From the IMG/VR virus record IMGVR_UViG_3300028177_000004, positions 1 to 64,000 of that record: DNA of 64,000 nt; one strand, 5' to 3'. Shown here piece by piece: positions 3,861 through 23,112 of the stretch. How positions within the stretch are numbered: the stretch's first letter is position 1; every line of letters starts with the position of its first letter. Source of the DNA: a virus. The position numbers and the translations under genes were made by a program. The notes under the pieces are model-generated. The model worked only from the letters and a program-made list of their open reading frames with translations, had not been told where the DNA came from and made no database searches.

Positions 3861-4196
3861 GGGCAACTGGCATGCCTTAACGACCATGTTGAGACCGAAG
3901 CAGAGCTAGACGGAACCAACTTCACAGGGGGGCTGGTGTCATGGGAATATCTGGGTATTGAATACAAGCCAAGCAAGGGCGACATTGTTTTATTCCCTGC
4001 AAATTACATGGCGGCACATTCTGTTTCTGAGGTTTCCGGAGGGTCAAGGTATTCGCATGTAGGGTGGTATTGCCACGGAACGCCAAATGGCGCGTTTAAC
4101 GAGCCTGTTATAGACCCGCTTGAACACCCAGAAGCGGCAGACATAACAACAAATATTTATATGCCAGAAGGTTACAAACTCCCCGATGCAAGATAG
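3861..4196 (+). pseudogene. C-terminal remnant of a 2OG-Fe(II) oxygenase
   Basis: In the same frame as the fibre remnant and just after its last stop, the sequence reads CLNDHVETE...GGLVSW, then KPSKGDIVLFPANYMAAH and a GSRYSHVGW ending. This is the second half of a prolyl-hydroxylase-type double-stranded beta-helix: the YLND turn, GD-LVLFP strand, distal His and the Arg that binds 2-oxoglutarate. The half with the HxD iron ligands is missing. A product could start only at GTG 3936 (86 aa), which would be inactive. It overlaps the next, intact oxygenase gene by 11 nt. Confidence 0.6.
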
Positions 4197-4791
4197 AGAA
4201 CCACCTCCGCCGATACGGAATGTTCAACGACATTCAATTGTTGATATTGGTTATTGGACATGCGAGTTGGATAGCCGTGATGCTAAAGCTATCCATAACC
4301 TTGTTGTTGAAAAGCATGTGCCACATGAGGACCTTGATCTACCAATCGGAAATATCACTATGGACTTGCGGCAGCAAATCACAAGCGCTGCCTGCGAGCT
4401 ATTGGGTCGACCGTATTACATAGACGCCATCTGGGGTGTGTACACAGGACCCGGACAGTCCGTTATGGCCCATTCCCACTGGTCGAATACTTGGCTGAAT
4501 CCAGAGGAACACTTCTCCTTCTGCTATTACCCCCTCTGTCAAGAAGATGATGCTGACATGGTGATTCACATCATGTACTGCAATCGTCTTGAAGTTCTTG
4601 AAAGCATCCCACTCCGCCCGGGCCTATTAGTCATCTTTGGGGCCTATTACCAACACATGACAACAAGGCAATTTCCTGACAGAGACCGTGTATCTATAGC
4701 TGGTAACCTATATCCCTATGAGCCCACGGGCATCGCAATACAACGAGAAACACGCCAAGGCGTGCTGAGTGGCGACCTATGGCAACAATAG
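4186..4791 (+). CDS. 2OG-Fe(II) oxygenase-like protein
   Basis: 201 aa. The cupin-like core shows AHSHW (His96/His98), an acidic stretch, a LRPGLLVIFGAYYQH strand with distal His157, and DRVSIAGN with Arg168-x-Ser170, the expected 2-oxoglutarate anchor. This spacing fits the small 2OG oxygenase family whose proximal ligand pair is in HxHxx[ST] form; the first-shell Asp/Glu is not obvious, so the iron site is uncertain. Such enzymes hydroxylate side chains or small molecules using Fe(II), oxygen and 2-oxoglutarate. It overlaps the remnant upstream (11 nt) and the next gene (13 nt), so it is co-translated with them. Confidence 0.6.
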   Translation: MQDREPPPPIRNVQRHSIVDIGYWTCELDSRDAKAIHNLVVEKHVPHEDLDLPIGNITMDLRQQITSAACELLGRPYYIDAIWGVYTGPGQSVMAHSHWSNTWLNPEEHFSFCYYPLCQEDDADMVIHIMYCNRLEVLESIPLRPGLLVIFGAYYQHMTTRQFPDRDRVSIAGNLYPYEPTGIAIQRETRQGVLSGDLWQQ

Positions 4792-5429
4792 GAATACTCC
4801 ACACAGGGTCCATGGGAGTCACCATTGCCGATTCGTTACTTCGAGCCGGTCATGATGTGTTGTCGGCCACAAAGGATCGTTCTGAATTAACCCAAGAACG
4901 AGCTCGCATAGTGGGGACAAGAGAGGTTGAAACCCCAGATCGAGTATTCGAAGAAGCAGATGTTGTGTTTTCTGTCTCCCAGTTTGGCGGCGTCATCATC
5001 GGAGAAAGTGCCGTGTGGGACCAAGAAAAGCAAACAATGGTCACAGAAGAAGGCATTTATCCTAGAGCTGAGTCATACCCAACGATGGACGCAGCCATAG
5101 AAGTTGATTTTTCAGGTATTTATGTTGACTGCAATTGGGTTCACCCGAGCAACTGGGAGGACTTTCGAGAAAACGCCACCTTGCTCAACAGCTACGTTGA
5201 GTGTGGTATCTACGGGTACCCCTTGTCACACGAGATGGGCGATTTGAGACGCTTCATGTGGCTAAGTGGCGATGATGCAGAGTCTGTCTCAGACCTGTTC
5301 CTCAACGATCCGTTAGCTTCTATTGTCCCGATTGTCTTACCTTCGGGAGTGCAAGCTAGAGAATTTAAAGAAGAGTCCGCTAAAGCTAACTATATGCCCG
5401 AAGGCTGGGGAGAAAGAATATGCAGGTAG
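4779..5429 (+). CDS. NAD(P)-binding Rossmann protein, 6-phosphogluconate dehydrogenase-like
   Basis: 216 aa. The N-terminus IGILHTGSMGVTIADSLLRAGHDV is a beta-alpha-beta dinucleotide fold with GxxxxG-M-G, as in the 6-phosphogluconate/3-hydroxyisobutyrate dehydrogenase superfamily, followed by ADVVFSVSQFG (second beta strand) and VDCNWVHPSNW. The C-terminal half YPLSHEMGDLRRFMWLSGDD resembles the substrate-loop region, but the protein is about 70-90 residues shorter than bacterial enzymes and lacks the long all-helical dimer domain. It could be an auxiliary metabolic gene that prepares a sugar or substrate for the oxygenases, or a binding protein derived from such an enzyme. It sits between two oxygenase-type genes with overlaps at both ends. 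Confidence 0.6.
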   Translation: MATIGILHTGSMGVTIADSLLRAGHDVLSATKDRSELTQERARIVGTREVETPDRVFEEADVVFSVSQFGGVIIGESAVWDQEKQTMVTEEGIYPRAESYPTMDAAIEVDFSGIYVDCNWVHPSNWEDFRENATLLNSYVECGIYGYPLSHEMGDLRRFMWLSGDDAESVSDLFLNDPLASIVPIVLPSGVQAREFKEESAKANYMPEGWGERICR

Positions 5430-5707
5430 TTCATCACGGAGGGATTGTCGAGTTCCCGGACGTTTTTAACGTAGATCCAGATGTTTTAGATAATTGGATG
5501 TCGTTGCGCAGGGAATGTGAGCCAAGCGATTACACAATTAACGATGATGGCAACTATGTGAATAGAGGCGGGTACACCTTTACTCCAGAACAAATCGAGT
5601 CATCCCCAACCCGCTTTTTAAACCTAACTCCCGACGGGGAAGACCTCACGTTCATGGTAAGGTCTAGGCATGCAAAACGATGCGGTTTCTCCACAAGGTG
5701 TCATTGA
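5420..5707 (+). CDS. Hypothetical protein, possibly an N-terminal oxygenase fragment
   Basis: 95 aa, ATG 5420 overlapping the previous stop by 10 nt. The start (VVEFPDVF-like, then NVDPDVLDNWM) and the phrase GNYVNRGGYTFTPEQIESSP look like the N-terminal part of hydroxylases found beside marine phage fibres, but there is no HxD and the last 20 residues turn basic and Cys-containing, as if the frame were truncated. It overlaps the next gene by 38 nt. Function not recognised. Confidence 0.5.
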   Translation: MQVVHHGGIVEFPDVFNVDPDVLDNWMSLRRECEPSDYTINDDGNYVNRGGYTFTPEQIESSPTRFLNLTPDGEDLTFMVRSRHAKRCGFSTRCH

Positions 5708-5870
5708 CGATTTGGCTGACCAAGTAAAGCGATTATCTATAGATAATGCGGTACTCCGTACAGCTATTAAGCAAATGCAACAGCAACAGGTGGCAGCGGC
5801 TCCTGACGGTCCACCAGCGGCAGCCATTGAAGACGTGGAGCTCGTAACTGACGATTCCGTAGAGGAATAA
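5670..5870 (+). CDS. Small coiled-coil protein
   Basis: 66 aa, ATG 5670. Residues about 10-40 form a heptad-type coiled coil (VIDDLADQVKRLSIDNAVLR then KQMQQQQ) followed by an Ala/Pro linker and an acidic tail ending DDSVEE. Short coiled-coil proteins of this shape are common next to marine phage fibre genes and may trimerise with a fibre. It begins inside the end of the preceding frame and stops 3 nt before the next ATG. Confidence 0.6.
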   Translation: MQNDAVSPQGVIDDLADQVKRLSIDNAVLRTAIKQMQQQQVAAAPDGPPAAAIEDVELVTDDSVEE

Positions 5871-5873
5871 ACA

Positions 5874-6296
5874 ATGGAACGGATCTGCTATTGCCCCTCC
5901 GACGATCTGGTCGAGGAAGCTATGGAGTTGGCTCTACCGTGGGGTATTCATGTTCAAACTGGAGAGAGTCAAGCAACGGAAGCGCTTGACTTCGACAGGG
6001 ATAAAGTTCAGATATTAAATATCCCAATTGAACAGCATTTTAAGATCTCTGACTCATTCCTTAGACCTTACCAAACCCTTGCGTGTAACTATGTAGACGA
6101 ATTCACGCTTGTAGGCAATGTATGTCTGGCTTATGACGGACCTCAGGGAACCACGGAGGTCGGAGCACTAATGTCGGGCGATCCTCATTACAAGGGTTGG
6201 AGGATTCGTTTTCCCAGTCCGGGAGAATATGAGGTCAGAGTTTATGACAAAGACGGAGATATAGCGTCTGAGAAAATCACGGTGAATCCGTGGTGA
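5874..6296 (+). CDS. Hypothetical protein with C-terminal beta-sandwich
   Basis: 140 aa. Unrecognised as a whole. The last 50 residues (GWRIRFPSPGEYEVRVYD then GDIASEKITV) have the strand pattern of an immunoglobulin-like or Calx-beta type sandwich used in adhesion modules. The N-terminal part has two cysteines (CYC) and an LPWGIH segment. Its stop overlaps the GTG start of the following hydroxylase (GTGA), so the two are translationally coupled. Confidence 0.65.
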   Translation: MERICYCPSDDLVEEAMELALPWGIHVQTGESQATEALDFDRDKVQILNIPIEQHFKISDSFLRPYQTLACNYVDEFTLVGNVCLAYDGPQGTTEVGALMSGDPHYKGWRIRFPSPGEYEVRVYDKDGDIASEKITVNPW

Positions 6297-6952
6297 AATT
6301 TCCAAAGGGGATACCAAATCCCCACCTTGCTCGCACCTCATTGGAGGATGATCCATTTCCTCATCTCGAAATCGCTCCGTTTCTCTACGTTTACCATTAT
6401 CCGTTTGACGGTCAAGCGTTAGTTGATGCTATTGAAAAAGACGGAGACATAACCCGTTGGAACGCCGCAAAGGTTGGTCGTGGAGACAATCAACGAATCG
6501 GCCTGTATAGGGACTCTCGTTCTCAAGTATTGACGGACCATTTGAGTGTGTTCGATCCCGAAGCTGAGATTGAAACCTATACGGAGCTACAGAAGGCTGC
6601 GTACCCGGTTTTATACCATGTTGAGCGGGCTGTTTGGGATTATCGAATCAAGAATAATTTAAAACTTCAAGATCATTCGGGTTGGGTTATCAATAAATAC
6701 GGGCATGGCGGACAATATAAGGTTCACGCCGATCATGGTACTGATGACCCCAGACTGTTGTCGGTTGTTTGTTATTTAAATACCGTTAAGGATGGTGGTA
6801 GAACTTTTTTCCCATTCCAAAATGTCGCAACTGATTGCATTGAAGGAAACATCGTTCTCTTTCCTTCTTCATATGCTTATGCTCATGCTTCTGAACCAGC
6901 TGGACGATACAGCGGAGAAGTCAAATACAGTATGGCGGCATTTTTTACATGA
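6293..6952 (+). CDS. Prolyl-4-hydroxylase-type 2OG-Fe(II) oxygenase
   Basis: 219 aa from GTG 6293, which overlaps the previous stop as GTGA (GTG 6290 is also possible). All core residues are present: VHADHG gives His145 and Asp147 of the HxD iron motif, LSVVCYLNTVKDGGRTFFPF is the typical YLN...GG-T-F turn, GNIVLFPSSYAYAH supplies distal His198, and KYS (Lys211-x-Ser) can bind the 2-oxoglutarate carboxylate. Likely hydroxylates prolyl or other side chains in a protein. Cytoplasmic, no signal peptide. The ATGA overlap with the next gene shows one operon with the halogenase. Candidate substrates are the fibre and adhesin proteins of the same region. Confidence 0.85.
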   Translation: MKFPKGIPNPHLARTSLEDDPFPHLEIAPFLYVYHYPFDGQALVDAIEKDGDITRWNAAKVGRGDNQRIGLYRDSRSQVLTDHLSVFDPEAEIETYTELQKAAYPVLYHVERAVWDYRIKNNLKLQDHSGWVINKYGHGGQYKVHADHGTDDPRLLSVVCYLNTVKDGGRTFFPFQNVATDCIEGNIVLFPSSYAYAHASEPAGRYSGEVKYSMAAFFT

Positions 6953-7515
6953 CGATAAAAGATGTCACAACAATCATTCCTACTGTAGAAATATTTCACT
7001 GCGGCCATGATGCTAAAGCCGTTATAGAAGGCTACAAAGAAGAGACTGCACGAACATGGTCGTATCTCCCATCTTTTGGGGGATTCAGCAACGATTTGGA
7101 GCATTGCAATAGTCACTACACCCCTTTGAGTCCGGTGTTGACTGCGGTTGCTGACCGTTTACTGGAAATGAAAGAAGCTTTCTATGAAATGAACGAAATA
7201 GTAGAAAACTGCTTGAATAGTTACTCTCTGTATCACGAAACTTTTTACTTAAGAGATAGTGGCCCTCAGTTCATATGGATAGAGAAAAATGGCAACCAAT
7301 TTTCTGGGACCCTCGATCCACCTACCAATTCTTATACGACGGCAGCGATGTTTGCTCTTTCCGATGTTACGATTCGTTTAGAAGCACACGATATTGAATA
7401 TGACATGTTTGCTGGAGATGTGCTTATTTTGCCGTGTCTGTTTCCATTTGATTTAAGAGCTAGATCAGTAAATGATGAAGCGTTTCTATACTTCAAATAC
7501 ATGTGGCCTGTATAA
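6949..7515 (+). CDS. Hypothetical protein, degenerate cupin-like
   Basis: 188 aa, ATGA overlap with the hydroxylase. The C-terminal third (FALSDVTIRLEAHDIEYDM, then AGDVLILPCLFPFDLRARSV and FKYMW) follows the strand order of a 2OG-oxygenase double-stranded beta-helix (GD-LILP strand, then R-S), but the HxD pair and distal His are replaced, so it may be an inactive partner or binding protein for the neighbouring hydroxylase. Two nucleotides would separate it from the halogenase start: the stop TAA at 7513 abuts ATG 7516. Confidence 0.55.
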   Translation: MTIKDVTTIIPTVEIFHCGHDAKAVIEGYKEETARTWSYLPSFGGFSNDLEHCNSHYTPLSPVLTAVADRLLEMKEAFYEMNEIVENCLNSYSLYHETFYLRDSGPQFIWIEKNGNQFSGTLDPPTNSYTTAAMFALSDVTIRLEAHDIEYDMFAGDVLILPCLFPFDLRARSVNDEAFLYFKYMWPV

Positions 7516-9048
7516 ATGAAACACATTCTTATAGTGGGCTCTGGTCAAGCAGGGCTGATTGCGGCAACAACCATAAAGGCGACTTTCGCGGACTTCGAGG
7601 TCACGGTAGTTTCTTCGAAAGAGATCGAGCCTATTGGTGTGGGCGAAGGCAGCACGGAACAATGGGCGGCATATGAGGATCGTGTTGGGATAGATAGACC
7701 TCATTTAATTAGAGACTCTATGGCTACCTTCAAATATGGAATTAGATTTTTAGATTGGACCAACCATACGCCAGACTATTTTCATAGTATTTCTGGTCGT
7801 ATTTTATATACCAACACAGGTACATTTAATGGTCTTTATAATTACATTCATTCTTCCGACAGGCAGCTGACCCCTTCACTTACCCATGCAGGATTAATAA
7901 ACAATCTAGTCCCAGACACTCCTAACCCGTGGCATCAAACTAATCAATTTCATTTTGACAGTGCCAAATTAAATACATATTTAATTGGTCACGCAGAAAC
8001 CATGGGTATCAAGTTCGTTGACGCTATGGTCAGCGGGATTGAAAGAGACCCTTCCTCGGGTGACATTACTAGCGTTATTACTTCTACAGGAAACATCGAA
8101 ACAGATTTCGTTATTGATGCCAGCGGTTTTAACCAAGTAATACTGAAAGAGTTGGGTGAGATTTGGCAAAGTTCTTATGAAGAATATCTCCCTTGTGACT
8201 CTGTTTTGGTGTTTCAAACGCAAGAAAACCATACGATCAAACCTTTTACTGAGGCTAAAGCCTTATCTGCTGGGTGGCATTGGGAGATTCCCACCTATGA
8301 ACGAAGGGGTCATGGGTATGTATTCTCTTCTCGCTATACGGATGAAGAACGAGCGGCTAAAGAAGTTGAAGAGTATATAAATGAGCCAGTAACCGACGCT
8401 CGAATCATCAAGTACAAGCCATTTAAAGTAGAAAATTCATGGCAATTCAACTGTGTTGCGGTAGGGTTGGCGTCCAACTTTATTGAACCACTAGAAGCAA
8501 CTTCAATAGCTGCGACTATCGAGCAATCTAGATTGATTTGTTCATACTTGCCCACCTACAGGTCGAACTCGACAGCCCCACAACAGGGGTACAGCAAGGT
8601 TTTTGATTCGATGTTTGATAATCTTCTAACGATGGTGGCTATGCATTATGTTTCAGATCGTCAGGATTCACCAATGTGGATTGACCAACAGCATTCGCCA
8701 AGGCCCGAGCTACTCAATTTCTTAATAGAAATGTTTAGCCACAGAGGCCCTGAGGCTCACGACTTACCCATGACTGGCTACGAGCTTTTCCAGATACCCC
8801 ACTTTTGGCATGTAGCTCAAGGTCAGGGTCTGATCAGCAAGGAGGGGGCTAGGGTTGGGGTCGAAGCATACGGATCTACCCAACCAGCAAGAAGCATGCT
8901 GGAAGAGGTCAAAAGCTCTAGTGAAAATCCTCTTGAAGTGGCGCATAGGGTGGTCCTTGATCGCGCCCACAAAATATACTCAGACAAGCGTGCCGACTGG
9001 CATTTTGATGATTTCGGTGGACAACTCATTCCCAGATTGGAGCAGTGA
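7516..9048 (+). CDS. Flavin-dependent tryptophan halogenase family protein
   Basis: 510 aa, usual length for the family. GSGQAG at residues 8-13 is the FAD-binding turn. Lys73 in ATFKYGIRF aligns with the catalytic Lys of PrnA/RebH (which relays hypohalous acid). GWHWEIP is the family WxWxIP motif that blocks monooxygenase activity, and FIEPLEATS keeps the Glu of the PLES motif though Ser becomes Ala. Such enzymes chlorinate, brominate or iodinate indoles, phenols or peptides with FADH2 from a host or phage reductase; none is seen here. Marine cyanophage Syn10 encodes a related characterised halogenase (VirX1). The gene is AT-richer than the right arm. Substrate unknown. Confidence 0.88.
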   Translation: MKHILIVGSGQAGLIAATTIKATFADFEVTVVSSKEIEPIGVGEGSTEQWAAYEDRVGIDRPHLIRDSMATFKYGIRFLDWTNHTPDYFHSISGRILYTNTGTFNGLYNYIHSSDRQLTPSLTHAGLINNLVPDTPNPWHQTNQFHFDSAKLNTYLIGHAETMGIKFVDAMVSGIERDPSSGDITSVITSTGNIETDFVIDASGFNQVILKELGEIWQSSYEEYLPCDSVLVFQTQENHTIKPFTEAKALSAGWHWEIPTYERRGHGYVFSSRYTDEERAAKEVEEYINEPVTDARIIKYKPFKVENSWQFNCVAVGLASNFIEPLEATSIAATIEQSRLICSYLPTYRSNSTAPQQGYSKVFDSMFDNLLTMVAMHYVSDRQDSPMWIDQQHSPRPELLNFLIEMFSHRGPEAHDLPMTGYELFQIPHFWHVAQGQGLISKEGARVGVEAYGSTQPARSMLEEVKSSSENPLEVAHRVVLDRAHKIYSDKRADWHFDDFGGQLIPRLEQ

Positions 9049-9049: not shown

Positions 9050-9799
9050 GTGACTCTTTCTTTTGATTTTCCCGGTGGTACTAGAAATTTCCTACTTACT
9101 CTTGATGGGAGTATTGAAGAGTCGTTATGTCAAGAATTTTTAGATGCTTGTAAACAACATTATGAGGTGATGTTTGAACCCGGCCCCACTTGGGGTGGTG
9201 TTCGTCCAGATATGAAAAAAAGCATGGACGCCTCTATCGATCCGGCGTGGTTACAGGACAGAGATCTTGATTCGGTATCTGTATTTGGGTCCATGCGAGT
9301 TCAAGCTCAACGGGCGATGTATACGGCGATTGCTAAGTACAGGGAGCAATACAGGGAACTATGGACTGCTCCGGGTCTGTGTGACACTGGTTTCCGTCTG
9401 CAGCATTATCACCAAGCCGGAGGATGGTATAGACAGCATTGTGATGCAACTCCATGGGAAAGGTACGCTTCAGGGGACGATTTACCCCGTGTTCTTGGAA
9501 TTATCATATATCTCAATACTGTGGAATCCGGTGGTGGCACAAAGTTTCCAGAACAGAGACAAATCGTTTCAGCTGTTGCTGGCCGTGTGGCCGTATTTCC
9601 TACAGCTTGGACGCATCCACATCTCGGACTAACTCCGTTATCTTCCGACAAATTTATTCTCAACAGCTTTATTACATGTGAAAACATTCAGGGAGACACA
9701 CAGAGTCATGGTCGATCTCTGGCACCTATGGCTACTCCACTCAAAGTAGATGTAGAAAGTGTGGAGACTGAAGACCAAATTGTCGAGAAAGACAACTGA
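9050..9799 (+). CDS. 2OG-Fe(II) oxygenase, prolyl-hydroxylase type
   Basis: 249 aa from GTG 9050, two bases after the halogenase stop and 8 nt behind GGAG at 9038; ATG 9008 in the same frame is the alternative. HxD is His130-Cys-Asp132 in RQHCDATPW; YLNTVESGGGTKFPE is the conserved turn; VAVFPTAWTHPH gives distal His189/His191; Lys201 in SDKFILNSF is the likely 2-oxoglutarate anchor. The C-terminal 40 residues are an acidic tail. Immediate linkage to the halogenase suggests the same substrate or the same particle component. Confidence 0.8.
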   Translation: MTLSFDFPGGTRNFLLTLDGSIEESLCQEFLDACKQHYEVMFEPGPTWGGVRPDMKKSMDASIDPAWLQDRDLDSVSVFGSMRVQAQRAMYTAIAKYREQYRELWTAPGLCDTGFRLQHYHQAGGWYRQHCDATPWERYASGDDLPRVLGIIIYLNTVESGGGTKFPEQRQIVSAVAGRVAVFPTAWTHPHLGLTPLSSDKFILNSFITCENIQGDTQSHGRSLAPMATPLKVDVESVETEDQIVEKDN

Positions 9800-9981: not shown

Positions 9982-10257
9982 ATGGCTTACGATGCAGACG
10001 CCAATTACACATCTATCTGTAATTCGCTTGGGGTCATAATCGCCTCCGTTGGGGGTGACGAAACCTCTGCTGGGTCGATCACTTATGCTGACCTCAAAGA
10101 GTTGATCGCCACCGCTCACGCCGGTATCGGCGATCCCCATGTTCCTGAAGGATGGACAGTGGCGCAAAGGACCATTTATAGATCCAGACAACGAAAATTT
10201 GATAACGCTCGTAAATTCATATACCAGCGTGACCTTCTGACAGCTAGGAACGGATAA
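9982..10257 (+). CDS. Hypothetical protein
   Basis: 91 aa, ATG 9982 behind GGAGGAGG at 9966. The N-terminal half is a soluble alpha/beta segment rich in Ile/Ala; the C-terminal half is basic and helical (YRSRQRKFDNARKFIYQRD), suggesting nucleic-acid or protein binding. Its stop overlaps the next start (TAATG). Not recognised. Confidence 0.65.
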   Translation: MAYDADANYTSICNSLGVIIASVGGDETSAGSITYADLKELIATAHAGIGDPHVPEGWTVAQRTIYRSRQRKFDNARKFIYQRDLLTARNG

Positions 10258-10952
10258 TGGCGCTGAATGCAATCGACATGATAAAGGTCGCAGAAAAATA
10301 CACCTCAGCTGACCATACGTCGAACTTAGATTCTGACGCACAAATTGCTTCTGCTACGGCAATAGTTAACGAAGAAACCGGACACGGGATGGATCGAAGC
10401 ACGGAGACCGTTGGTTACAACGACGAGCTGTGCGTCTACGAGCGAGTTGCTTCCAACTCCCCGAGCTTTAACGCGGTCAACGCACACATGCGGAGCATGC
10501 AGGAAATGCTGATTCGTTTAAGTGCTCCGTCTGAACTGCTTGTGATCGGAATTCCCTATTGTCCGCTCAAGTTGGGCGTAGGCAACATAACCTTGGTTAA
10601 CAATCTGCACTTGGATTACATGGAACGCCATATGGACGTGTCTGGATTGGAATACGAAACCATTACGATGGGCGCGATCGAATTAAATAGTTTTCCTAAG
10701 ACTTTCGATATGGCATCGATTCACATGCCGCAGGTAAACCATAATTTTGAAATCGTAACGAACATCTTTGATCAGCTCCCGGTAGGGGGATCAATAATCC
10801 TAACCAGTACAAACGATCATGGTAGGTGGTTCGAGTTCGACAGTGCTCACGACTACGTCAATTTGTATTCGAATCTCACAGATAGAGCAGATGCAAATCT
10901 GTACCACATGGCTTCAGGTCTTGGAGTTTCTGTGGCGGTCAAAACTGCCTAA
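10257..10952 (+). CDS. Probable SAM-dependent methyltransferase-like protein
   Basis: 231 aa. The centre reads as a class I Rossmann methyltransferase: ELLVIGIPYCPLKLG (motif I-like strand with a loosened Gly loop), FDMASIHMPQ (motif post-I/IV region) and IFDQLPVGGSIILTS (motif V, as in O-methyltransferases). The canonical GxGxG is missing, so SAM binding is uncertain. The N-terminal helix-rich part has a conserved-looking EETGHG. It sits in the oxygenase/halogenase operon and could methylate the same target. Confidence 0.5.
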   Translation: MALNAIDMIKVAEKYTSADHTSNLDSDAQIASATAIVNEETGHGMDRSTETVGYNDELCVYERVASNSPSFNAVNAHMRSMQEMLIRLSAPSELLVIGIPYCPLKLGVGNITLVNNLHLDYMERHMDVSGLEYETITMGAIELNSFPKTFDMASIHMPQVNHNFEIVTNIFDQLPVGGSIILTSTNDHGRWFEFDSAHDYVNLYSNLTDRADANLYHMASGLGVSVAVKTA

Positions 10953-10970: not shown

Positions 10971-11834
10971 ATGGACTTCAAAATCCGTGGAGAAGATCTT
11001 CTCGGCGACGACTATTTGTTAGCTTCTGATATCGAGATACCTCCGGGTCACATCCTTTTGAGTCCACAACACGACAGATTTTATGACCCCAAAATAACCC
11101 CCTTGGATAACTCTAAGGTTTGGCCTTCTTGGAGAAGAAACGCAGGAGGCGGATTTAAAGCCTGTCAGGGAACATCTGATTACATTTCCTTGGGGGGCAC
11201 ATGGAGATTACCTGCCCCTCTTAGATTCCGACCGTCGGCAGACGCACAGAAATGGGAAGCTCGCTGGGACATAGCTGGAGACGAGAGAAATCACGGTCTC
11301 GCTGTAGATATTTTTACTTATGAATCCAGCGGAGCGGGCTGTCCATTCAACGAAGGACGTGGACTGCCTGAGAGTAACCACATCAAAGTAGTCAATCCGT
11401 GGACAATTAAAACAGCTCCCGGCTGGTCAACACTGCTATTACCGTGCTGGATGGAGGAACCACGGGAATGGTCACTCATGCCGGGGATTGTCAATACCGA
11501 TTATTACCACACTATGAATTGGGTTATTAATATCTTCACTGACAAAGAATTCGTGATCCCTATGGGCTGGCCTATTGCCCAAATGATTACATTTCCACGA
11601 AATCACCAAAATATTATGTATGGTCAGCCGAAAATAGCTGAATGGTTAATAAATCTCGGCATGCAATCACCTATCGGCATACCTGCGGATAGAAGTGGTG
11701 CCTACCGTCGAGAACAAAAGGATGCGCCGATTCCAGAAGTGTGTCCTGTGGCTGGAAAACAGAAGTCTTTCAAAAAACGCCTATCCGATTGGATCTTCGG
11801 CGAGTTAAACCCCCCAAAGGGCAATACGTTGTAG
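10971..11834 (+). CDS. DUF6065-like protein
   Basis: 287 aa. The core phrase VNPWTIKTAPGWSTLLLP, then PGIVNTDYYH and FVIPMGWPIAQMITFPR matches the pattern I associate with the DUF6065 proteins of marine phages (K-x-NPW-I-T-PG-S, GIV-TD-Y, IP-G-P-AQ-I-F). The family has no established biochemistry; a cupin-like fold is plausible. The C-terminal 45 residues are basic and unstructured. Ends the enzyme run before a second set of structural genes. Confidence 0.55.
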   Translation: MDFKIRGEDLLGDDYLLASDIEIPPGHILLSPQHDRFYDPKITPLDNSKVWPSWRRNAGGGFKACQGTSDYISLGGTWRLPAPLRFRPSADAQKWEARWDIAGDERNHGLAVDIFTYESSGAGCPFNEGRGLPESNHIKVVNPWTIKTAPGWSTLLLPCWMEEPREWSLMPGIVNTDYYHTMNWVINIFTDKEFVIPMGWPIAQMITFPRNHQNIMYGQPKIAEWLINLGMQSPIGIPADRSGAYRREQKDAPIPEVCPVAGKQKSFKKRLSDWIFGELNPPKGNTL

Positions 11835-11887: not shown

Positions 11888-12229
11888 ATGGCACTGACAC
11901 AAACAAGGTTGTCTGGACCCGCAGTTGTAATCAACACGGGTACATACGGTGGCGTCCAATACACAGTAGGGGGCGGCACATCAACAATTGTAAAACAAAT
12001 AGTCCTGACAAATATCACAGCTTCAGCACAGACGGTAACCCTCACACTGAAGCCAAACGGTGTCACCATTGCTGACACACATCAGATATTCAAAGACTTA
12101 TCCCTTACAGAAAAAGAAACAACGCTTCTCAACATGTCAATGGTTATGAACACCGGAGACGAGTTGCATATGTTATGTGGCAACGCTTCTAGCGTTAATG
12201 CGACGGTGAGCGGAATTGAGATCACCTAA
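11888..12229 (+). CDS. Putative virion protein (beta-sandwich)
   Basis: 113 aa, ATG 11888 after GGGAAGGA. Regular alternating strands (QTVTLTLKPNGVTIAD, then LHMLCGNASSVNATVSGIEI) typical of small phage tail or head-decoration beta-sandwiches. No catalytic motif. Its stop overlaps the next ATG (TAATG), forming an operon with the two adhesins downstream. Confidence 0.7.
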   Translation: MALTQTRLSGPAVVINTGTYGGVQYTVGGGTSTIVKQIVLTNITASAQTVTLTLKPNGVTIADTHQIFKDLSLTEKETTLLNMSMVMNTGDELHMLCGNASSVNATVSGIEIT

Positions 12230-12954
12230 TGACATGGGGCAGGGTTAAGGTCAACTCGCCGGGAAAATTGGCAAGCTTCCTAGATTCCCCGGATGACGTT
12301 TATGGCTCAGGCGCAGATTTAGATGCAACGATAGCTACTAATGCCACCATGTCCAGTGACATGTACTACTACAACTTGACTGTTAATGGTGGTATCACAC
12401 TAAATACTGGTGGGTATCGGTTATTTGTAAAAAACGTTTTAACTATGGGAGCTTCGTCGGTTATCGGCCTTCCCGGTGGTTCAACCGCTGTGGGTACCCT
12501 AAAAGCTGGAGCGGCAGTCACAGTTAATACGACATGCAGCCTCGGTGGCAACGGAAACACAGATAGTTCCGCTGATGGGGGCACTGCTACCGCCCCCACG
12601 GCAGCACAAGGCGGAACCGCATACTGGCGATATCCAGCTCAGGCTGTTCGTGGTTACGCGGTTACTGCTTCAGCAACCACTCCCACTCATTTGCAGGGTG
12701 GAGCAGGTGGTCCAACTGGTCAAGGGGTTGGCGGAGGGGTAGTAATTGTTGCAGCACGATACATCTCCACAGCAGGAGCTTGCACGATTTCTGCAACTGG
12801 GGGCGCCCAAGCGGGCGGAGGTGCCATTATCTTCTTTTCGTCAAATGACGAAGCTACGTTCAACGCCCAAACACACTTGACATTGTCGGCGGCGAAAGGA
12901 AGCGGTTCAGGTAACCACACTGATGGGACAACCATCTACATTGAGGTTGACTAA
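12229..12954 (+). CDS. Tail fibre/adhesin-like protein
   Basis: 241 aa. Repeating short strands with Asn/Thr/Gly (SSDMYYYNLTVNGGITLN, LFVKNVLTMG, VIVAARYIST) indicate a right-handed beta-helix or adhesin shaft. The N-terminal phrase GSGADLDATI..MSSDMYYYN recurs in the next gene as GTGVDGAASI..MTRDMYYT, showing that the two are paralogues. Gly-rich middle. Likely exposed on the virion. Coupled at both ends by TAATG overlaps. Confidence 0.75.
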   Translation: MTWGRVKVNSPGKLASFLDSPDDVYGSGADLDATIATNATMSSDMYYYNLTVNGGITLNTGGYRLFVKNVLTMGASSVIGLPGGSTAVGTLKAGAAVTVNTTCSLGGNGNTDSSADGGTATAPTAAQGGTAYWRYPAQAVRGYAVTASATTPTHLQGGAGGPTGQGVGGGVVIVAARYISTAGACTISATGGAQAGGGAIIFFSSNDEATFNAQTHLTLSAAKGSGSGNHTDGTTIYIEVD

Positions 12955-14369
12955 TGCCTATCATTCGACATAACAGACCCGTTGTTCAACGTCTCGGCAA
13001 CGACATTATTTATGGAACGGGCGTTGACGGTGCCGCGTCTATTACTGGAACCGTCGTAATGACTCGTGACATGTACTACACGACCTGCACTATACAAAGT
13101 GGTGCAATTCTATTTACTAATGGATTCCGTGTTTTTTGTACTGGAGACTTAGACATAACGGGAACCTTGGGTATGCCTTCTGCTGTGCAACATACAGTTG
13201 GGCTCGGAACGGTTACTGGTCGTGTTGACGATGGAAGCATCCCTAAAACCTACGTTTTGGGAGATTCTACCGCAGGTGGTGCAACTCAAGTTCCTGCGTC
13301 GATATTGAAGGACTTAGAGCAAGCTATTCAGGGTTGGAACTGGGACCCCACCGACGGTTTTAAACGTTTTGAAGCTGGCAGCGATGGTGATACCGGTTCT
13401 GATACTGGGGGAAGTCCGGGAGGCGCAGGTGGTGCTGCGCCGGGAACTCCACCGTTGGGTAATCCGGGAAACCCCGGAAGTACGGGAGGCACAGGTTCTG
13501 GTGGCGCTGGAGGCGCTGGCGGAGGTTTGGTTGTAGTGGCAGCCAAAACGATTAGCGGTTCTGGAACGATTGTTAGTGCCGGAGTAGCTGGGTCTGCTGG
13601 GTCTACTGGAGCTACTGGGGCTGCTGGAAACCCGGGAAATGCGGGAGCGATTAATCCCGGTTCGCACACTCCTGCCGGGGGTGGAAATACCAACCCAGTA
13701 ACGGGCGGAAACGTTAATCCCGGCGGAAACGTCAATCCAGTAACCGGTGGAAATGTCAACCCGGTAACCGGTGGAAATGTCAATCCGGTCGAAGGCGGCA
13801 CTGTCAACCCGGGTGGAAATGTCAACCCAGTAACGGGCGGAAACGTCAATCCGTCTCACCATAAGGAATCTCCGGGAAACCCGGTTTCACACGGAGCGCA
13901 CAACCCGAGCTTCCATCACCCAACAAATGGGTACCACTCTCCCGGAAATCCATACACGGCTTACGGACCCGGCCCACCCACCCATTCCCCGGTCGGTGGA
14001 AATGTCAACCCAGTCGAAGGTGGAAACACCAATCCCGGCGGAAATGTCAACCCGACTCACGGTGGAAATGTCAACCCAGTCGAAGGTGGAAATGTCAATC
14101 CGCCGACGGGTGGCAATGTAAATCCGGGTGGAAATGTCAACCCGGTAACCGGTGGAAACACCAATCCGTCCCATGGGGCTCACCACTCTGCAGGAAACCA
14201 AGATCCGGGAGGCGCTGGCGGTGCTGGCGGTGCTGGTGGGACCGGAACAACAGGCGGTCTGGGTCGTTTCGGTGGCATCGTTCTAATCACAGACACGGCT
14301 TCTTCGACAATAACAAGCAACATAACCTTGACAAGCGCTACATATACCCATATTGATGCTGCTGTCTAA
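12954..14369 (+). CDS. Adhesin with GGNVNP polyglycine/proline repeats
   Basis: 471 aa. Residues 1-95 resemble the previous adhesin. Residues about 140-230 are Gly-rich with a beta-helix strand (GGLVVVAAKTISGSGTIVSAG). Residues about 235-410 hold some 20 copies of G-G-N-[VT]-N-P, often spaced by VT, VE or TH, interrupted by a His/Pro-rich insert (nt 13860-13990). Residues 415-440 are GGAGG repeats, then a final beta strand set. Such repeats can fold as a polyglycine-II bundle, as in some phage adhesin tips. The many Pro residues make it the most attractive substrate for the phage prolyl-hydroxylase-type enzymes; that link is inference. Confidence 0.8.
   Translation: MPIIRHNRPVVQRLGNDIIYGTGVDGAASITGTVVMTRDMYYTTCTIQSGAILFTNGFRVFCTGDLDITGTLGMPSAVQHTVGLGTVTGRVDDGSIPKTYVLGDSTAGGATQVPASILKDLEQAIQGWNWDPTDGFKRFEAGSDGDTGSDTGGSPGGAGGAAPGTPPLGNPGNPGSTGGTGSGGAGGAGGGLVVVAAKTISGSGTIVSAGVAGSAGSTGATGAAGNPGNAGAINPGSHTPAGGGNTNPVTGGNVNPGGNVNPVTGGNVNPVTGGNVNPVEGGTVNPGGNVNPVTGGNVNPSHHKESPGNPVSHGAHNPSFHHPTNGYHSPGNPYTAYGPGPPTHSPVGGNVNPVEGGNTNPGGNVNPTHGGNVNPVEGGNVNPPTGGNVNPGGNVNPVTGGNTNPSHGAHHSAGNQDPGGAGGAGGAGGTGTTGGLGRFGGIVLITDTASSTITSNITLTSATYTHIDAAV
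13680..14175 (+). repeat. GGNVNP-coding repeat tract
   Basis: Irregular tandem 18-24-nt units of the form ggtggaaatgtcaacccg, in frame in the adhesin. Third-position variation is moderate. Interrupted between about 13860 and 13990 by a His/Pro/Ser-rich non-repeat insert. Confidence 0.85.
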
Positions 14370-18100: not shown

Positions 18101-19671
18101 AGGTCGAAGAATTTGAAGAAGAAGTAGAGGAATGGACTGCTGAAGACGAAGAAGCCCTCATCCTTGAGGAGATGGGCTTAGAGGAGTGGCCGGAAGATTG
18201 GGGTCCATCGCCTAGCGAGTCGTGGGATTGGACAGAGGAAGATTGGGTTGCTTACGACGAAGAGAACGAACCCCTTTGGGAAGAGTTTCCCGATGAAGAA
18301 GAGTGGGATACTGAAGATGATCCCATAGAGGAGGACGAATGGTTCGAACCCGGTGACGAAGACGCAGAATCCGACCCAGATACATCTTCAGAAACGCAAG
18401 TGGATGAAGAGCAAATGGATGAAACGGAGCTGCCTTCTGAAGAAATAGAACCAGAACCGGAACCAGAGCCAGAGCCAGAACCAGAGCCGGAACCAGAGGA
18501 ACCGGAGTGGGTAGACCCCTATGAAGGCTGTAGGGGCACCTCAGCTTGCGACAGTGCCCCCGGGGGCTTTGAAACTTGGGAGGCTTACGACGCAGCCAAC
18601 GATCCCACCTACTACGACGATTGGGGTGCACCACCGGGCGGCTACACCACATGGGCTGGTTTCACTCTTGAAGTTGAGGCAGGGATAGTTCCAATAGATG
18701 TCGCTCAGGAATACCTCCCCGAAGAAGTCCAAGAGGCGTACATCCCGGTCGTGGTCCCGATAGCGGTCTACTACCCGACCATCACCTACACGACCACGAA
18801 CGCTGCCTTGTCCGAGACGATCTCTACGAGCACCACTACTGCTCAGACGGGGACCGCCACCACAACCGCTGAGAGCGGAATCTTGACCCACAACAGCAAC
18901 GATGGTCACTGGCATCTTGCAACCACAACGGCGACGACGGTTACGACGACTCATGTAGACACGACAACCGTGGTGGCTCGCGCCGGATCGGATATGACGA
19001 CCTGCACGTTCTCAGATGGTGTTCAGCAGAGTTGCTCAACGGTGCGCGGCTGGAGTCCTCAAACCACGACGGTTACCGCTGGCGACGCCTACACATCAGC
19101 GTCTACTACAACGGCTGAGGCTGTGAACACCGAGGAAGGCTGCTCTGAGGGTGGATGGAGAGGCATGGGCGACTGGTGCATCGTGCAATCCTCTAGCCGC
19201 ACCGACCGTGACCATATTCAGTTCTCGTTGGACGAGGTAACCAGTGTCCGTATCGACGCCGAATCGAACCTGACTAGCGCCCAGTTCGGGTCCAGCAACG
19301 AGGCTGGCGACCCGTACATCTACCTGAACAATGACAACGACTCTGACACCGGGGATCATTCCGGGGACACTGGTGCTGTCACGGTTGGTGCCCAGATTGA
19401 AACGGACGACGATGGGGGAAGTGACTGTGGAAGCACCTGCGCTACCCCGCCTAGCAACGCCGTGGATGTAGACGAAACCCCGACGATCACCTACTGCGAT
19501 ACCGGGGGCGCTTGCTCTGATGGTGTCGCCGTGATCGACAACGTGAGCGATCAGTGGGATGCTCGCATCGTCCGCACGGACATGGCTGTGGGCGACTATG
19601 TGGTACAGGCTGCCGTATACAACGGGAACAACAGTGGGTGGTATCGACTAACTATCGAAGAGGTTGATTGA
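15178..19671 (+). CDS. Giant acidic lipoprotein with Cys-His-Asp protease-like domain and Trp/Glu repeats
   Basis: 1497 aa, the largest gene here. Residues 1-20 are a signal peptide with lipobox LSGC, then a Ser/Pro/Thr linker. Residues about 60-285 look like a papain/C39-like cysteine peptidase: GLCEGLAVLS (Cys137), GGHAVTPYRV (His235) and IYDSNWPN (Asp255). Residues 290-400 form a beta-rich domain with a CSFC pair. From about 400 to 1120 the protein is extremely acidic, with four or five 50-60-residue repeats containing LEEWPEDWGPSP and DW-YDEE. Then PEPEPE, a Cys-containing W-x-YD module, a Thr-rich stalk and a C-terminal pre-peptidase-like beta domain. It would be anchored outside the host membrane. 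In a phage this could be a virion-attached, envelope or lysis factor; function unknown. Confidence 0.75.
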   Translation: MKRLLSAFLAGVLVLSGCSSSEPTAPTDTLFPPTTTKIVTTTTDGVISTTSTVAPEVLEKAPLADHAIPNYTTNDDTFSFQNFSGGEAPADLTVNMTRRLYGDSQVCSDVTDGKCTPYPVILQLMSQANKSMRGGLCEGLAVLSLRLAGDIETLATFQNTQTVAELIKQDPALLSEIAYWYVTQFAMEVQQEASSYLEKSPTELAQVLLYDFSEAEKGNPHTGFTIGIYSEQGGHAVTPYRVEEMAGGYRIYIYDSNWPNEERWIDVSKDGQWIYALAATNPTEQSEAWSGGTGTMELTPMRSRSGPFTCSFCPQEDGEESGTMLTVAASGDKQMALKIETESGNRLGYYDGVFINEIEGATYRYLISGPSTADPVLVFLPPGVEAFSADVEEIDIPTPETEKPSSTQDRIKEAIEEQTEEETEQKFSLLVLNEEKSVQIEAVIVEEETPERWEQPEEEGEPEEVQSLLSFSEEAVEIAEIEEATVAIAVDALEVEIELEAGQQIEVAFAAEPEPQPEVEQPGAPTPEPEPVRDTLDIAIQDNEGEVLAEVEVDMTDYRVTEQVFEEPTVTVPARPDEPVTTLPPQPEPEPVVVPVVIELTFDADAGEITTEEVEVEAWVASDAEYFQAVAEDRIEEVLGTSYVEEIESVEEWEAPESFEEDEIDFVEILLSVDEEYWEDEQWEEVEYTDEWFEDEQELMDDLFGEAVDVEELFEEVESFMAEVEEERIVFFEEHEELDEEEFWEEYEEEYYEEDFAFQEYDAELEEEMILEEMGLEEWNETLLGPSPTETVDWEEEDWIVYDEEMDSVWEEEMEDPTSWEESLLEELGVEEWPEDWGPSPTEAAEWTEDDWDTYDQEWAADEEAMILEEEGLDEWPEDWGPSPSETALWDDGDWQAYDDEMHSLWEEEQIAEEESWELNTEEEWDDWQEEFWPDDAEWCDECEEGPWDEEDWVTYDEEQEQAFFEMLEGLTEEEVEEFEEEVEEWTAEDEEALILEEMGLEEWPEDWGPSPSESWDWTEEDWVAYDEENEPLWEEFPDEEEWDTEDDPIEEDEWFEPGDEDAESDPDTSSETQVDEEQMDETELPSEEIEPEPEPEPEPEPEPEPEEPEWVDPYEGCRGTSACDSAPGGFETWEAYDAANDPTYYDDWGAPPGGYTTWAGFTLEVEAGIVPIDVAQEYLPEEVQEAYIPVVVPIAVYYPTITYTTTNAALSETISTSTTTAQTGTATTTAESGILTHNSNDGHWHLATTTATTVTTTHVDTTTVVARAGSDMTTCTFSDGVQQSCSTVRGWSPQTTTVTAGDAYTSASTTTAEAVNTEEGCSEGGWRGMGDWCIVQSSSRTDRDHIQFSLDEVTSVRIDAESNLTSAQFGSSNEAGDPYIYLNNDNDSDTGDHSGDTGAVTVGAQIETDDDGGSDCGSTCATPPSNAVDVDETPTITYCDTGGACSDGVAVIDNVSDQWDARIVRTDMAVGDYVVQAAVYNGNNSGWYRLTIEEVD
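17482..18290 (+). repeat. Trp/Glu-rich protein repeats in lipoprotein gene
   Basis: Units begin near nt 17482, 17641, 17773 and 18152 and share the pattern ILEE-GLEEWPEDWGPSP(T/S)E, then W-EEDW-YDEE. A weaker unit lies near 17950-18060. Unit length varies from about 100 to 380 nt between starts, so these are diverged domain repeats and not microsatellites. Confidence 0.8.
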
Positions 19672-21192: not shown

Positions 21193-21452
21193 GACGACTT
21201 GCCACAATTGTTATGCGCTGTATTGCCGTTTTTGTGGCGAATGCGTTGAGTGTGATCGGAGCAGGCGCCATTGCTGGTGTCGACATTTTGCAGTCTTGTC
21301 TTATCGCTGGCCTGTCAGGTGTGGCGACAGTTGTCGGTGGGCTAGCTAGGGCCTACCTCGTGGACGGCGAACTATCCAAGGAAGACGTTAACAAGGTTTT
21401 CGCTAGTGCTCCTACAGGCAAAAAAGGCGGAACAAATACTCAAACCGTCTAA
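21189..21452 (+). CDS. Small membrane protein, holin candidate
   Basis: 87 aa, ATGA overlap with the previous gene. Two transmembrane segments (MRCIAVFVANALSVIGAGAI and SCLIAGLSGVATVVGGLA) separated by a short loop, then a polar tail KGGTNTQTV. Size and topology are those of class II holins. Which of the three consecutive membrane proteins is the holin cannot be decided from sequence. Confidence 0.65.
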   Translation: MRRLATIVMRCIAVFVANALSVIGAGAIAGVDILQSCLIAGLSGVATVVGGLARAYLVDGELSKEDVNKVFASAPTGKKGGTNTQTV

Positions 21453-21462
21453 GGAGGGAATT

Positions 21463-21591
21463 ATGTCAGATTCAGGATGTCCAAATTGCAGTTGTCCATC
21501 ATGCCCGTGTAGCTGCAATCATTGTGACTGTTGCGGACATATGGACGGTCTAAGATATACCTATGCACAGAGTCGCAGGCGGTTCCTATAA
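21463..21591 (+). CDS. 42-aa cysteine-rich peptide
   Basis: ATG 21463 with a strong AAGGAGG 6 nt upstream. Nine cysteines fall in residues 6-23 in the pattern CPNCSCPSCPCSCNHCDCC, then a basic tail. This density suggests a metal-binding (metallothionein or zinc-cluster) peptide, or a peptide substrate for a modifying enzyme. Its last 29 nt overlap the TauD-like oxygenase gene, so the two are coupled. No family recognised. Confidence 0.7.
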   Translation: MSDSGCPNCSCPSCPCSCNHCDCCGHMDGLRYTYAQSRRRFL

Positions 21592-22564
21592 CGACCTCAT
21601 CGATGGCTTTGAGGTCTACGCGGATTTACTATTAGAACACAAAGCTCTTGGCTTTGAGGACCCCCTTTACTTGACACCCGAGCAGCACGGAAAAGTACTG
21701 CTGCGCCTTTTTGATTTTGATTTATGTCGAAATGTTTATTCGACTAGGGGTGCCAGTATCTGGACAGACAACACCTACGAGAACCTTTCTCCCGCTGGTC
21801 GGCTGACTGAAGACAAAGATCCGTTGGACTGCATGAAGTCCAACTGGCACGCAGATTGTGTTGAGTACAAGCGTCCGGTCTCTTATTTGAGTATGAGCAT
21901 GTTGGAATACGATTGCCCGGAGGGACAAGGGGACACCGTTCTTGTCAATCTAGAGGATCTGTACGAAAAATGTCCATATAAAGAGTATTTAGAAGATCTG
22001 AATCTTGCCCATCCCGCCAAGGGGGGCGTCCAGATAGACGAGAGTATCGAAGCTCAAATCCATCCAGCTTTAAGAACGCACCCTGTTACCGGTAAAACGA
22101 GTTTATGCATCTCGGACAGCCGCATGCTGCCCATAGGAGCTTCCAAAGATGCGTTGGGGAGTGGATGGGGTGCGGGCTTAGACCCCGCAGCGGGCATAGA
22201 AGGCTACGGATATATGGGTTCGGATGAACAGCCAGAATTTGTGGAATATATGCAGTGGATACACGATCAGATTAATGATCCCGAGAATCAACAGTGGTTT
22301 CGTTGGGAAGAAGGAAATTTTTTGATTTGGGATAACCGCTGTAACCTTCATTCGTTTTCCGGATGGATGGGTCCTCGCAGTTTCAACCGAGGTCTAGTGG
22401 GCATGGACGCGGTTTGGTATGGCGGTAAGCGCAAGATAGACATAATGGAAGAAGAAAACGCTTTTGAGGTTGACGAAAAAGATGAAATTCACTTTCACAG
22501 CATGTCGTCTCCGGAAGATCTAGCGGAGTCTCGTACCAAGCCGGGCGGAGGTTACGAGGATTGA
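21563..22564 (+). CDS. TauD/TfdA-type 2OG-Fe(II) dioxygenase
   Basis: 333 aa. Iron site: His96 and Asp98 in SNWHADCVE, distal His263 in WDNRCNLHSF; Arg272 or Arg276 shortly after can bind 2-oxoglutarate. FRWEEGNFLIWDNR is the family W-x-G-D/N-L-IWDNR strand. Members hydroxylate or desaturate small molecules such as taurine or lysine, or carrier-bound amino acids. Overlaps the cysteine-rich peptide (29 nt) and, through TTGA, the next oxygenase. The ATG at 21563 fits the coupling; no other good start is near. Confidence 0.8.
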   Translation: MHRVAGGSYNDLIDGFEVYADLLLEHKALGFEDPLYLTPEQHGKVLLRLFDFDLCRNVYSTRGASIWTDNTYENLSPAGRLTEDKDPLDCMKSNWHADCVEYKRPVSYLSMSMLEYDCPEGQGDTVLVNLEDLYEKCPYKEYLEDLNLAHPAKGGVQIDESIEAQIHPALRTHPVTGKTSLCISDSRMLPIGASKDALGSGWGAGLDPAAGIEGYGYMGSDEQPEFVEYMQWIHDQINDPENQQWFRWEEGNFLIWDNRCNLHSFSGWMGPRSFNRGLVGMDAVWYGGKRKIDIMEEENAFEVDEKDEIHFHSMSSPEDLAESRTKPGGGYED

Positions 22565-23112
22565 CCAAGCCTCCGACGATTACAACCTTCCAAGAATTCC
22601 ATCTCTGGGATCAGGAGCAGTGCCAGCAGGTTCTTGACATTGCACAAAAGGGAGAAGCCCACGAAGCTCGTGTCATAGCTCAAGGGGCACAGCGGAAACC
22701 GGACATTCGATCAACCGAGAGATACAGGGTCGAAGATCTGGGAGTGCTCAATCAACTCTTAAATGCTTTTGGTGACCACAACGTGTGGGACTTCTGTACT
22801 TACTGGGGAACGGATTCACTTCCACTTGTGGAGGTCCTCCACTACAAGGAGGGCGATTTCTACAAGCCTCACACTGACTGGAGTCCGTTTTACCGGGAAC
22901 GCAAATTATCTATGACCATCCAATTGTCGGACTCCCGACAATATGGGGGTGGAGAAGTTTTACTATACGACGGTCCTGAGCCATGGACTGTTACCCAAAT
23001 GCAGGGTTATGCCACCGTCTGGCCGTCGTGGACTCTTCATGAGGTAAAGCCCTTGATTACGGGTGAACGCTGGGCACTGGTCGCTTGGATGCGCGGACCT
23101 GATTTCTACTAG
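22561..23112 (+). CDS. PKHD-type 2OG-Fe(II) oxygenase
   Basis: 183 aa from TTG 22561, which overlaps the preceding stop (TTGA). All core residues are present: KPHTDW (His104, Asp106), LSMTIQLSDSRQYGGGEVLLYDG, distal His160 in WTLHEVKPL and Arg170 in GERWALVAWM, ten residues later. This is the layout of PKHD/prolyl-hydroxylase enzymes. Last gene of the long + strand late unit. With the TauD-like enzyme and the cysteine-rich peptide it forms a separate oxygenase cassette after the lysis genes. Confidence 0.82.
   Translation: MTKPPTITTFQEFHLWDQEQCQQVLDIAQKGEAHEARVIAQGAQRKPDIRSTERYRVEDLGVLNQLLNAFGDHNVWDFCTYWGTDSLPLVEVLHYKEGDFYKPHTDWSPFYRERKLSMTIQLSDSRQYGGGEVLLYDGPEPWTVTQMQGYATVWPSWTLHEVKPLITGERWALVAWMRGPDFY

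Follow-up and report, generated by a model that had tools for sequence, protein, structure and literature searches.

What use does a phage have for several 2-oxoglutarate (2OG) and Fe(II)-dependent oxygenases and a flavin-dependent halogenase placed among the genes of its adhesins? The question is raised by a locus in the first 64,000 positions (hereafter the window) of the 80,231-base IMG/VR virus record IMGVR_UViG_3300028177_000004. A preliminary description of the window had listed five intact 2OG-type genes together with a flavin halogenase and a Rossmann-type protein, and had proposed that the set decorates fibre, adhesin or lipoprotein residues or else makes a small molecule during infection. 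In open reading frames (ORFs) that were called mechanically throughout, all of these genes are indeed present. With a confidence slightly above even, we read the locus as an adhesin-modification cassette, in which oxygenases of the prolyl 4-hydroxylase (P4H) type would hydroxylate Pro (or Asn) and the halogenase would act on rings in the variable region of the adhesin, most likely those of His. The genes on which this reading depends are the following.

4186..4791, + strand: 2OG oxygenase of the PF13759/phrog_81 type with an HxH motif (phrog_81 E 7.7e-13; PF13759 weak, below cut-off)
5874..6296, + strand: u5874, a small N-terminal alpha/beta part and an Ig/filamin-like domain (model pLDDT 95.5)
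6290..6952, + strand: P4H-type 2OG oxygenase, intact H-A-D...H...K (PF13640 42.4 bits; alignment columns)
6949..7515, + strand: conserved P4H-like pseudoenzyme without metal ligands (no Pfam match; aligned with the proteins of nine relatives)
7516..9048, + strand: flavin-dependent halogenase (PF04820, Trp_halogenase, 302 bits)
9050..9799, + strand: P4H-type 2OG oxygenase, GTG start at 9050, in-frame starts also upstream (PF13640 33 bits)
10971..11834, + strand: u10971, DUF6065-like protein with a possible dUTPase-like core, the usual halogenase partner (model pLDDT 83)
11888..12229, + strand: u11888, small fibre-associated protein (in 77 of 80 fibre loci; PF20752 weak)
12229..12954, + strand: u12229, short Gly-rich fibre protein (family alignment A3, 41-54% identity)
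12954..14369, + strand: long adhesin, the proposed substrate (sequence, composition, enzyme-composition correlations)
21563..22564, + strand: TauD/TfdA-type 2OG oxygenase, H-A-D motif with distal H and R (PF02668 79 bits)
22561..23112, + strand: P4H-type 2OG oxygenase, TTG start, coupled to the TauD gene (PF13640 55 bits; H, D, H present)

The iron-binding HxD...H sites, which the preliminary description had conceded might prove broken in most of the proteins, are retained. Over 315 P4H family members the first His is present in 100%, the Asp in 75% and the second His in 98%, and in the window the proteins encoded at 6290, 9050 and 22561 show the H, D, H triad in the alignment, their distal Lys or Arg being read from the sequence. 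The oxygenase at 4186-4791 has HxH rather than HxD, a form also found in the PF13759 proteins of the cyanophage Syn10 locus. A PF13640 search over the whole record matched at 22831, 6689, 9395 and 3921 only. The protein encoded at 9050-9799 has a weak match to the algal prolyl-4-hydroxylase 2jig (E 0.007) and orthologues in the same place in L008, L013 and L088 (L numbers are our handles for loci), homologues of 6290-6952 are most often the gene immediately before the halogenase (position -1), and in L008, L013, L171 and L172 the upstream part of the cassette includes a TauD gene. What had been taken for a degenerate cupin at 6949-7515 is, judging from its alignment, a conserved P4H-like pseudoenzyme: it shares a G-D-x-x-x-P-x-x-F-P core with nine relatives' proteins and, having no HxD..H, is not regarded as an active oxygenase. 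Nor should it be considered a decayed gene, because a protein lacking the metal-binding site directly precedes the halogenase in all nine. The halogenase itself carries in its sequence the marks of the PF04820 superfamily (GxGxxG FAD motif, catalytic Lys and WxWxIP). In an alignment of 187 relatives, which conserve the catalytic Lys and Glu, Trp254, Glu324 and Glu327 are invariant, G8/G10/G13 and Lys73 are found in 187 or 186 of the 187, and the WxWxIP motif is kept at W254 (187/187), W256 (165/187) and P259 (180/187).

The comparison across related phages that the preliminary description had called for revealed a conserved arrangement. Viral halogenases were collected with a profile made from an alignment of five phage halogenases, which retrieved at least 586 viral relatives; a search of viral contigs with the window halogenase as single sequence gave no match. 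The loci compared are the best-scoring 76-80 per scan, with several contigs recurring across scans, and the clusters counted (70% identity) are not fully independent of each other. Across 80 halogenase loci mapped, the usual order is [u11888] - short fibre u12229 - long adhesin - u5874 - P4H - (pseudo-P4H or methyltransferase-like gene) - halogenase - DUF6065-like u10971. In 37 of the 80 loci a P4H gene immediately precedes the halogenase (position -1), against about 4-9% per position six to eight genes off; the DUF6065-like gene holds position +1 in 36 of 80, and the fibres mainly positions -3 to -6. Reciprocal scans recovered a halogenase in 62/80 fibre loci and in all 78 DUF6065-like loci fetched. 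A concentration of 2OG genes beside a halogenase, thought at first to be unusual, turned out to be the rule: a P4H lies within 8 kb in 92 of 94 viral halogenase clusters, PF13640 genes occur in 39 of 40 viral halogenase records checked (up to 12 in one 45-kb contig), and the cultured phages HTVC008M and Syn10 (see below) are similarly equipped. A fibre gene accompanies 48/94 clusters, every one of which has a P4H (48/48), a DUF6065-like gene accompanies 62/94, and all three companions are found within 8 kb in 48/94. L088/L168 and L098/L169, the closest relatives of the window, share its cassette, with fibres 90-92% and DUF6065-like proteins 66-72% identical. In the window the genes run 5874-6290-6949-7516-9050-9982-10257-10971-11888-12229-12954, with the fibres last, as in L008, L013, L048, L088, L097 and L172. 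The order P4H-halogenase-DUF6065-like is retained among halogenases that are mostly just 36-49% identical to that of the window. Dozens of environmental phages that are only distantly related have this enzyme set next to this adhesin family.

The composition of the adhesins varies with the enzymes encoded beside them. The long adhesins of this family (330-1,120 aa) consist of an N-terminal domain, Gly-X-Y blocks (e.g. GNPGNPGNAGNPG), a variable middle rich in both Asn-Pro and His, and a C-terminal Gly-rich block; that of the window, probably the tip with which the phage binds its host, shares its N-terminal domain with the short fibre and has Gly-X-Y tracts, 23 Asn-Pro, a His-rich middle and no Trp past residue 130. 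In two tests, on P4H number and on halogenase presence, each 70%-identity cluster of adhesin N-terminal domains contributed a single value. With P4H genes counted within 7.5 kb, Asn-Pro density increases with P4H gene number (rho 0.73, p 1.8e-7, 38 clusters; rho 0.73, p 6e-9, 47 clusters with a third scan added). The partial rho given GC content, length and background is 0.67, and Asn-Pro in the other large proteins of the same loci shows no correlation (rho 0.02). Among 246 dipeptides NP, GN and PG, i.e. Gly-Asn-Pro-Gly, take ranks one to three for correlation with P4H number. Collagen prolyl 4-hydroxylase acts on Pro at the Y position of Gly-X-Y, and the adhesins offer such Gly-X-Pro triplets: in the Gly-X-Y tracts of 112 adhesins, Pro stands at Y 319 times versus 56 times at X.

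The presence of the halogenase, in turn, follows adhesin His. In 40 clusters with a halogenase His makes up 4.2-14.7% of the adhesin (mean 8.8), and in seven without it 0-3.1% (mean 0.8), with no overlap (Mann-Whitney U test, p 3e-5). The separation withstands phylogenetic analysis of variance (p 0.001) and contrasts (r 0.52, p 1.8e-4), with four changes inferred on the tree; it emerged from a first look at two clusters and then held after five further ones came from a new scan. PF04820 was absent from the whole records of representative loci judged to lack a halogenase. Adhesin Tyr shows the opposite trend (2.8% with versus 5.6% without halogenase). Trp is equal in both groups (0.6 versus 0.4%) and near zero in the adhesin body (about 0.5%, often none), which makes it no credible target, and we rejected it. 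His is hence, from these compositions, the best candidate for halogenation in the adhesin. At the threshold used, no Gly/His-rich proteins were found in 47 halogenase loci without a u12229-type fibre, and the His link is therefore tied to this adhesin family. As a side observation, the halogenase-less fibre loci L131, L250 and L296 have two or three diverged DUF6065-like genes and Tyr-rich adhesins, and the adhesins of L131 and L136 contain NPTNYGSNPTNYGSN repeats.

Modification of the adhesin fits best because the enzymes accompany one adhesin family across many phages and adhesin composition follows the enzymes; that part of the preliminary proposal stands, whereas the Trp halogenation it had named does not suit an adhesin body nearly free of Trp. 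From gene content, intact catalytic sites, conserved synteny and the co-variation of adhesin composition with the enzymes we infer a substrate, target residues, a chemistry and a benefit as follows. The long adhesin (12954-14369) and its short partner (12229-12954) would be made together with their modifying enzymes. The P4Hs encoded at 6290, 9050 and probably 22561 would hydroxylate Pro, or Asn, in Gly-Asn-Pro and Asn-Pro repeats, and the halogenase at 7516, drawing reduced flavin from a reductase of the host, would halogenate electron-rich rings of the variable region, most likely His and less likely Tyr. Help in substrate binding or assembly may come from the pseudo-P4H (6949), from the Ig-like protein (5874) and from the DUF6065-like protein (10971) with its possible dUTPase-like core, and the adhesin, once chemically altered, would differ in receptor binding or stability. 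A bolder version, which we put forward tentatively, is that the enzyme is a protein-histidine halogenase placing Cl or Br on many adhesin His while the P4Hs hydroxylate the Gly-Asn-Pro repeats, so that a genetically encoded halogenated and hydroxylated receptor-binding material would result, with the VirX1-type cyanophage halogenases near Gly-rich fibres following the same strategy.

Several points speak against adhesin modification. All support for it is correlative and no modified residue is known, nor do we know of a flavin halogenase that acts on histidine. Around half of the viral halogenase clusters do not lie beside a u12229-type adhesin, so the enzyme family must have other settings. 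Phylogenetic contrasts weaken the relation between Asn-Pro and P4H number (r 0.41, p 0.011 in the first set; r 0.22, p 0.14 in the full set), and part of that correlation is therefore shared ancestry; in the nine clusters unique to the third scan Asn-Pro alone is not significant (rho 0.42), Pro and PG being so. The halogenase-less clusters number just seven, of which four form one clade and two lack the whole cassette, and the adhesin of the window is of the least His-rich type among halogenase loci (4%).

Among the alternatives, the one that survives best, although we regard it as fairly unlikely, has the 2OG oxygenases modify the adhesin while the halogenase acts elsewhere, be it on free Trp, indoles, a metabolite of the host or some other protein, for example the lipoprotein encoded at 15178-19671. 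The enzyme has the family name and the fold of tryptophan halogenases, and the 15178 protein is rich in Trp (3.5% W, 27% D+E), as is its counterpart in L168. But such a Trp-rich acidic protein was found only in the window and its nearest relative rather than cassette-wide, and was rejected as a general halogenase substrate for that reason. The C-terminal part of free-Trp halogenases binds Trp, and phmmer matches of the window halogenase to most of them (RebH, PyrH, Thal) stop before this part, which is indirect evidence against such a substrate; the co-variation of halogenase presence with adhesin His also speaks against this reading. The 15178-19671 product is itself a huge acidic lipoprotein-like protein of 1,497 aa with repeats such as EEWPEDWGPSPTE, and its counterpart in the nearest relative has at least 1,635 aa (L168:14224-19128).

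Improbable in our view is that the fibre end is merely a hot spot where accessory genes pile up by host-range genes and hitch-hike with them, no function linking the two and adhesin composition then reflecting lineage. The partly phylogenetic nature of the P4H/Asn-Pro correlation would agree with this, as would the remnants and shuffled order in the window, which are typical of a turnover region; however, the P4H-halogenase-DUF6065-like order has been kept at the low halogenase identities given above, and His content separates completely and survives the phylogenetic tests. Natural-product clusters often contain halogenases and oxygenases of the TauD and P4H types. This, and a review counting phage halogenases as auxiliary metabolic genes (PMC10452541), might be cited for a small molecule made or altered during infection, be it a signal, an antibiotic or a halogenated metabolite. 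Such a role nevertheless seems an equally poor candidate, given that the region examined showed no genes for making a scaffold or otherwise assembling a small molecule, that the stable companions are fibres, DUF6065-like and Ig-like proteins, and that a metabolite leaves the co-variation with adhesin composition unexplained.

Related arrangements exist in cultured phages. The VirX1-type halogenases (cyanophage Syn10, PDB 6qgm), described by a broad, iodide-preferring in-vitro activity (PMC8407142), belong to the same superfamily as the window halogenase. In the Syn10 locus, within 13 kb, two halogenases are preceded by fibre genes of the Gly-rich type (PF21722) and followed by several 2OG genes (PF13759, PF13640, JmjC), but 6qgm is distant in sequence (the nearest solved structure to the window halogenase is 6frl with 183 bits, versus 117 bits for 6qgm) and the locus lacks a u12229-type His-rich adhesin. 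At L331:4482-7587 in Syn10 the two halogenases stand in tandem soon after Gly_rich_2 fibre genes and before the 2OG and JmjC genes, surroundings that are probably the natural setting of VirX1. Pelagiphage HTVC008M has a halogenase gene that overlaps one for a phytanoyl-CoA dioxygenase, and four more genes of the 2OG type lie no further than 8 kb away. Halogenases follow Gly-rich or tail-fibre genes in Syn10 and S-WAM1, a partial link in cultured phages, and in S-SRM01 the halogenase has fibre genes on one side and a 'gp37-gp38 adhesin tip complex' gene on the other; in S-PM2, Syn1, S-B64 and ACG-2014c no fibre gene adjoins it directly, and in S-SSM7 its neighbours are sugar genes. Sullivan et al. 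(2010) tabulated PrnA and 2OG-Fe(II) genes, the latter numbering up to five in a single cyanophage; the published proposals for these 2OG genes are DNA repair and 2OG/NtcA control, without a link to adhesins (PMC3037559). In S-H38 the genes flanking the halogenase (L007:4398-5030 and 7440-7931) are annotated as 'DNA endonuclease V'; since PHROGs of this name (phrog_274, phrog_2297) match the 2OG oxygenases of the window, these are probably misnamed 2OG oxygenases.

For the P4H of Chlorella virus PBCV-1, 4-hydroxyproline in viral proteins has been proposed (Eriksson 1999, as cited in PMC9301287), and the viral use of P4H is said to remain 'cryptic' (PMC9301287). That enzyme is virus-encoded as in the window, but by a eukaryotic virus and without a halogenase partner. 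A further parallel is offered by the polyglycine-rich phage adhesins of the S16 gp38 type, in which Gly-rich blocks alternate with variable segments in the receptor-binding fibre tip; the likeness to the window adhesin, with its collagen-like G-N-P triplets and His-rich middle, is an analogy of layout alone. We know of no modifying enzymes for gp38, nor of a flavin-dependent halogenase acting on the Nereis jaw protein Nvjp-1. The latter, a Gly-/His-rich structural protein that is probably halogenated (PMC13120676), is an animal protein and serves as an analogy for the chemistry only. No paper linking phage halogenases or P4Hs to an adjacent adhesin substrate was found in a search that mostly left out subscription journals.

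The enzyme families are already known, and what is new is the conserved cassette around the adhesin. Aquatic phages often carry 2OG oxygenases and halogenases as 'auxiliary' genes, for which DNA repair, 2OG/NtcA control or metabolite chemistry have been proposed (PMC3037559, PMC10452541). The cassette points to a concrete substrate, the adjacent adhesin, with marks expected on Pro or Asn in Gly-Asn-Pro and on His in the variable region; its recurrence beside one adhesin family suggests that phages chemically decorate their own adhesins, which has apparently not yet been described. If true, phages would alter the chemistry of a receptor-binding protein beyond the 20 amino acids, with a bearing on host recognition, and the adhesins would become candidates for the class of native substrates on which VirX1-type viral halogenases act, and the cassettes a source of new protein-modifying halogenases.

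Other genes of the region are listed below.

3936..4196, + strand: P4H-type 2OG oxygenase, C-terminal remnant that lacks the first metal ligands (PF13640 27.7 bits, profile positions 60-97 only)
4779..5429, + strand: NADP/F420-type Rossmann oxidoreductase-like protein (PF03807 27 bits, above cut-off; same family in L008, L013, L048)
5420..5707, + strand: P4H-type 2OG oxygenase, N-terminal remnant (intact P4H-family proteins are 46-49% identical over ~80 aa)
9982..10257, + strand: small cassette protein u9982 (homologues before the methyltransferase-like gene in L008, L013, L048, L088)
10257..10952, + strand: methyltransferase-like protein, weak assignment (family in 13 loci of the first set)
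21463..21591, + strand: 42-aa Cys-rich ORF (MSDSGCPNCSCPSCPCSCNHCDCCGHM...) overlapping the TauD gene start, behind lysis genes (sequence only)

The preliminary description had counted at least one oxygenase remnant; there are two of the P4H type, each with intact counterparts in relatives. That at 3936-4196 represents the C-terminal third of a P4H whose full-length versions (282-301 aa) occur in L013, L008 and L048, shows 53-56% identity to residues ~195-296 of these proteins, and is preceded by a fibre-like remnant at 3603-3797; the counterparts of 5420-5707 are intact (219-254 aa) in L013, L008 and L174. The methyltransferase-like gene at 10257-10952 is present, but its assignment is weak, with single members of a 16-member family matching methyltransferase domains at E 0.05-0.06. 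The family of u5874, a candidate fibre-binding factor, occurs in 32 loci of the first set, and its model has Foldseek matches to filamin/Ig folds (E ~1e-4). PF19541 is matched by 4 of 28 members of the DUF6065-like family (best E 5.8e-5), the window protein itself being unmatched, and seven of the 28 have a weak PF00692 (dUTPase) match; its core gives Foldseek matches to dUTPases at E ~1e-4, but with a TMq of just 0.2-0.3. The literature searched contained no paper on DUF6065. The Cys-rich ORF could possibly encode a metal-binding or a precursor peptide; none was found next to TauD in five relatives (L325-L329). Among environmental loci, L010 (IMGVR_UViG_3300007538_000049) is a 44.9-kb phage contig with 12 PF13640 genes and a 1,123-aa adhesin.

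As to the phage itself, a WhiB gene (PF02467) at 27082-27399 of the window points to an actinobacterial host. This gene, the HK97-type capsid gene (PF05065) in the last 16 kb of the record and the lack of a near match in a DNA-level search of phage records with the window do not agree with a Kyanoviridae-type T4-like phage. Translated searches (tblastn) of phage records with the TauD, 6949, 4779, 10257, short fibre and DUF6065-like proteins gave no match, and hence no cultured phage with the exact cassette was found. Among the genome contigs searched, three DUF6065-like matches fell in contigs of metagenome-assembled genomes (Actinomycetota, Gammaproteobacteria), which are probably viral contigs binned along. 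In the capsid-gene region the record also encodes a 913-aa protein with a Zeta-toxin/AAA domain (PF06414; L002:12123-14864, record 76123-78864), and the same phage has a B12-dependent ribonucleotide reductase (RNR_Alpha, barrel and insertion domains) at L002:3089-5014.

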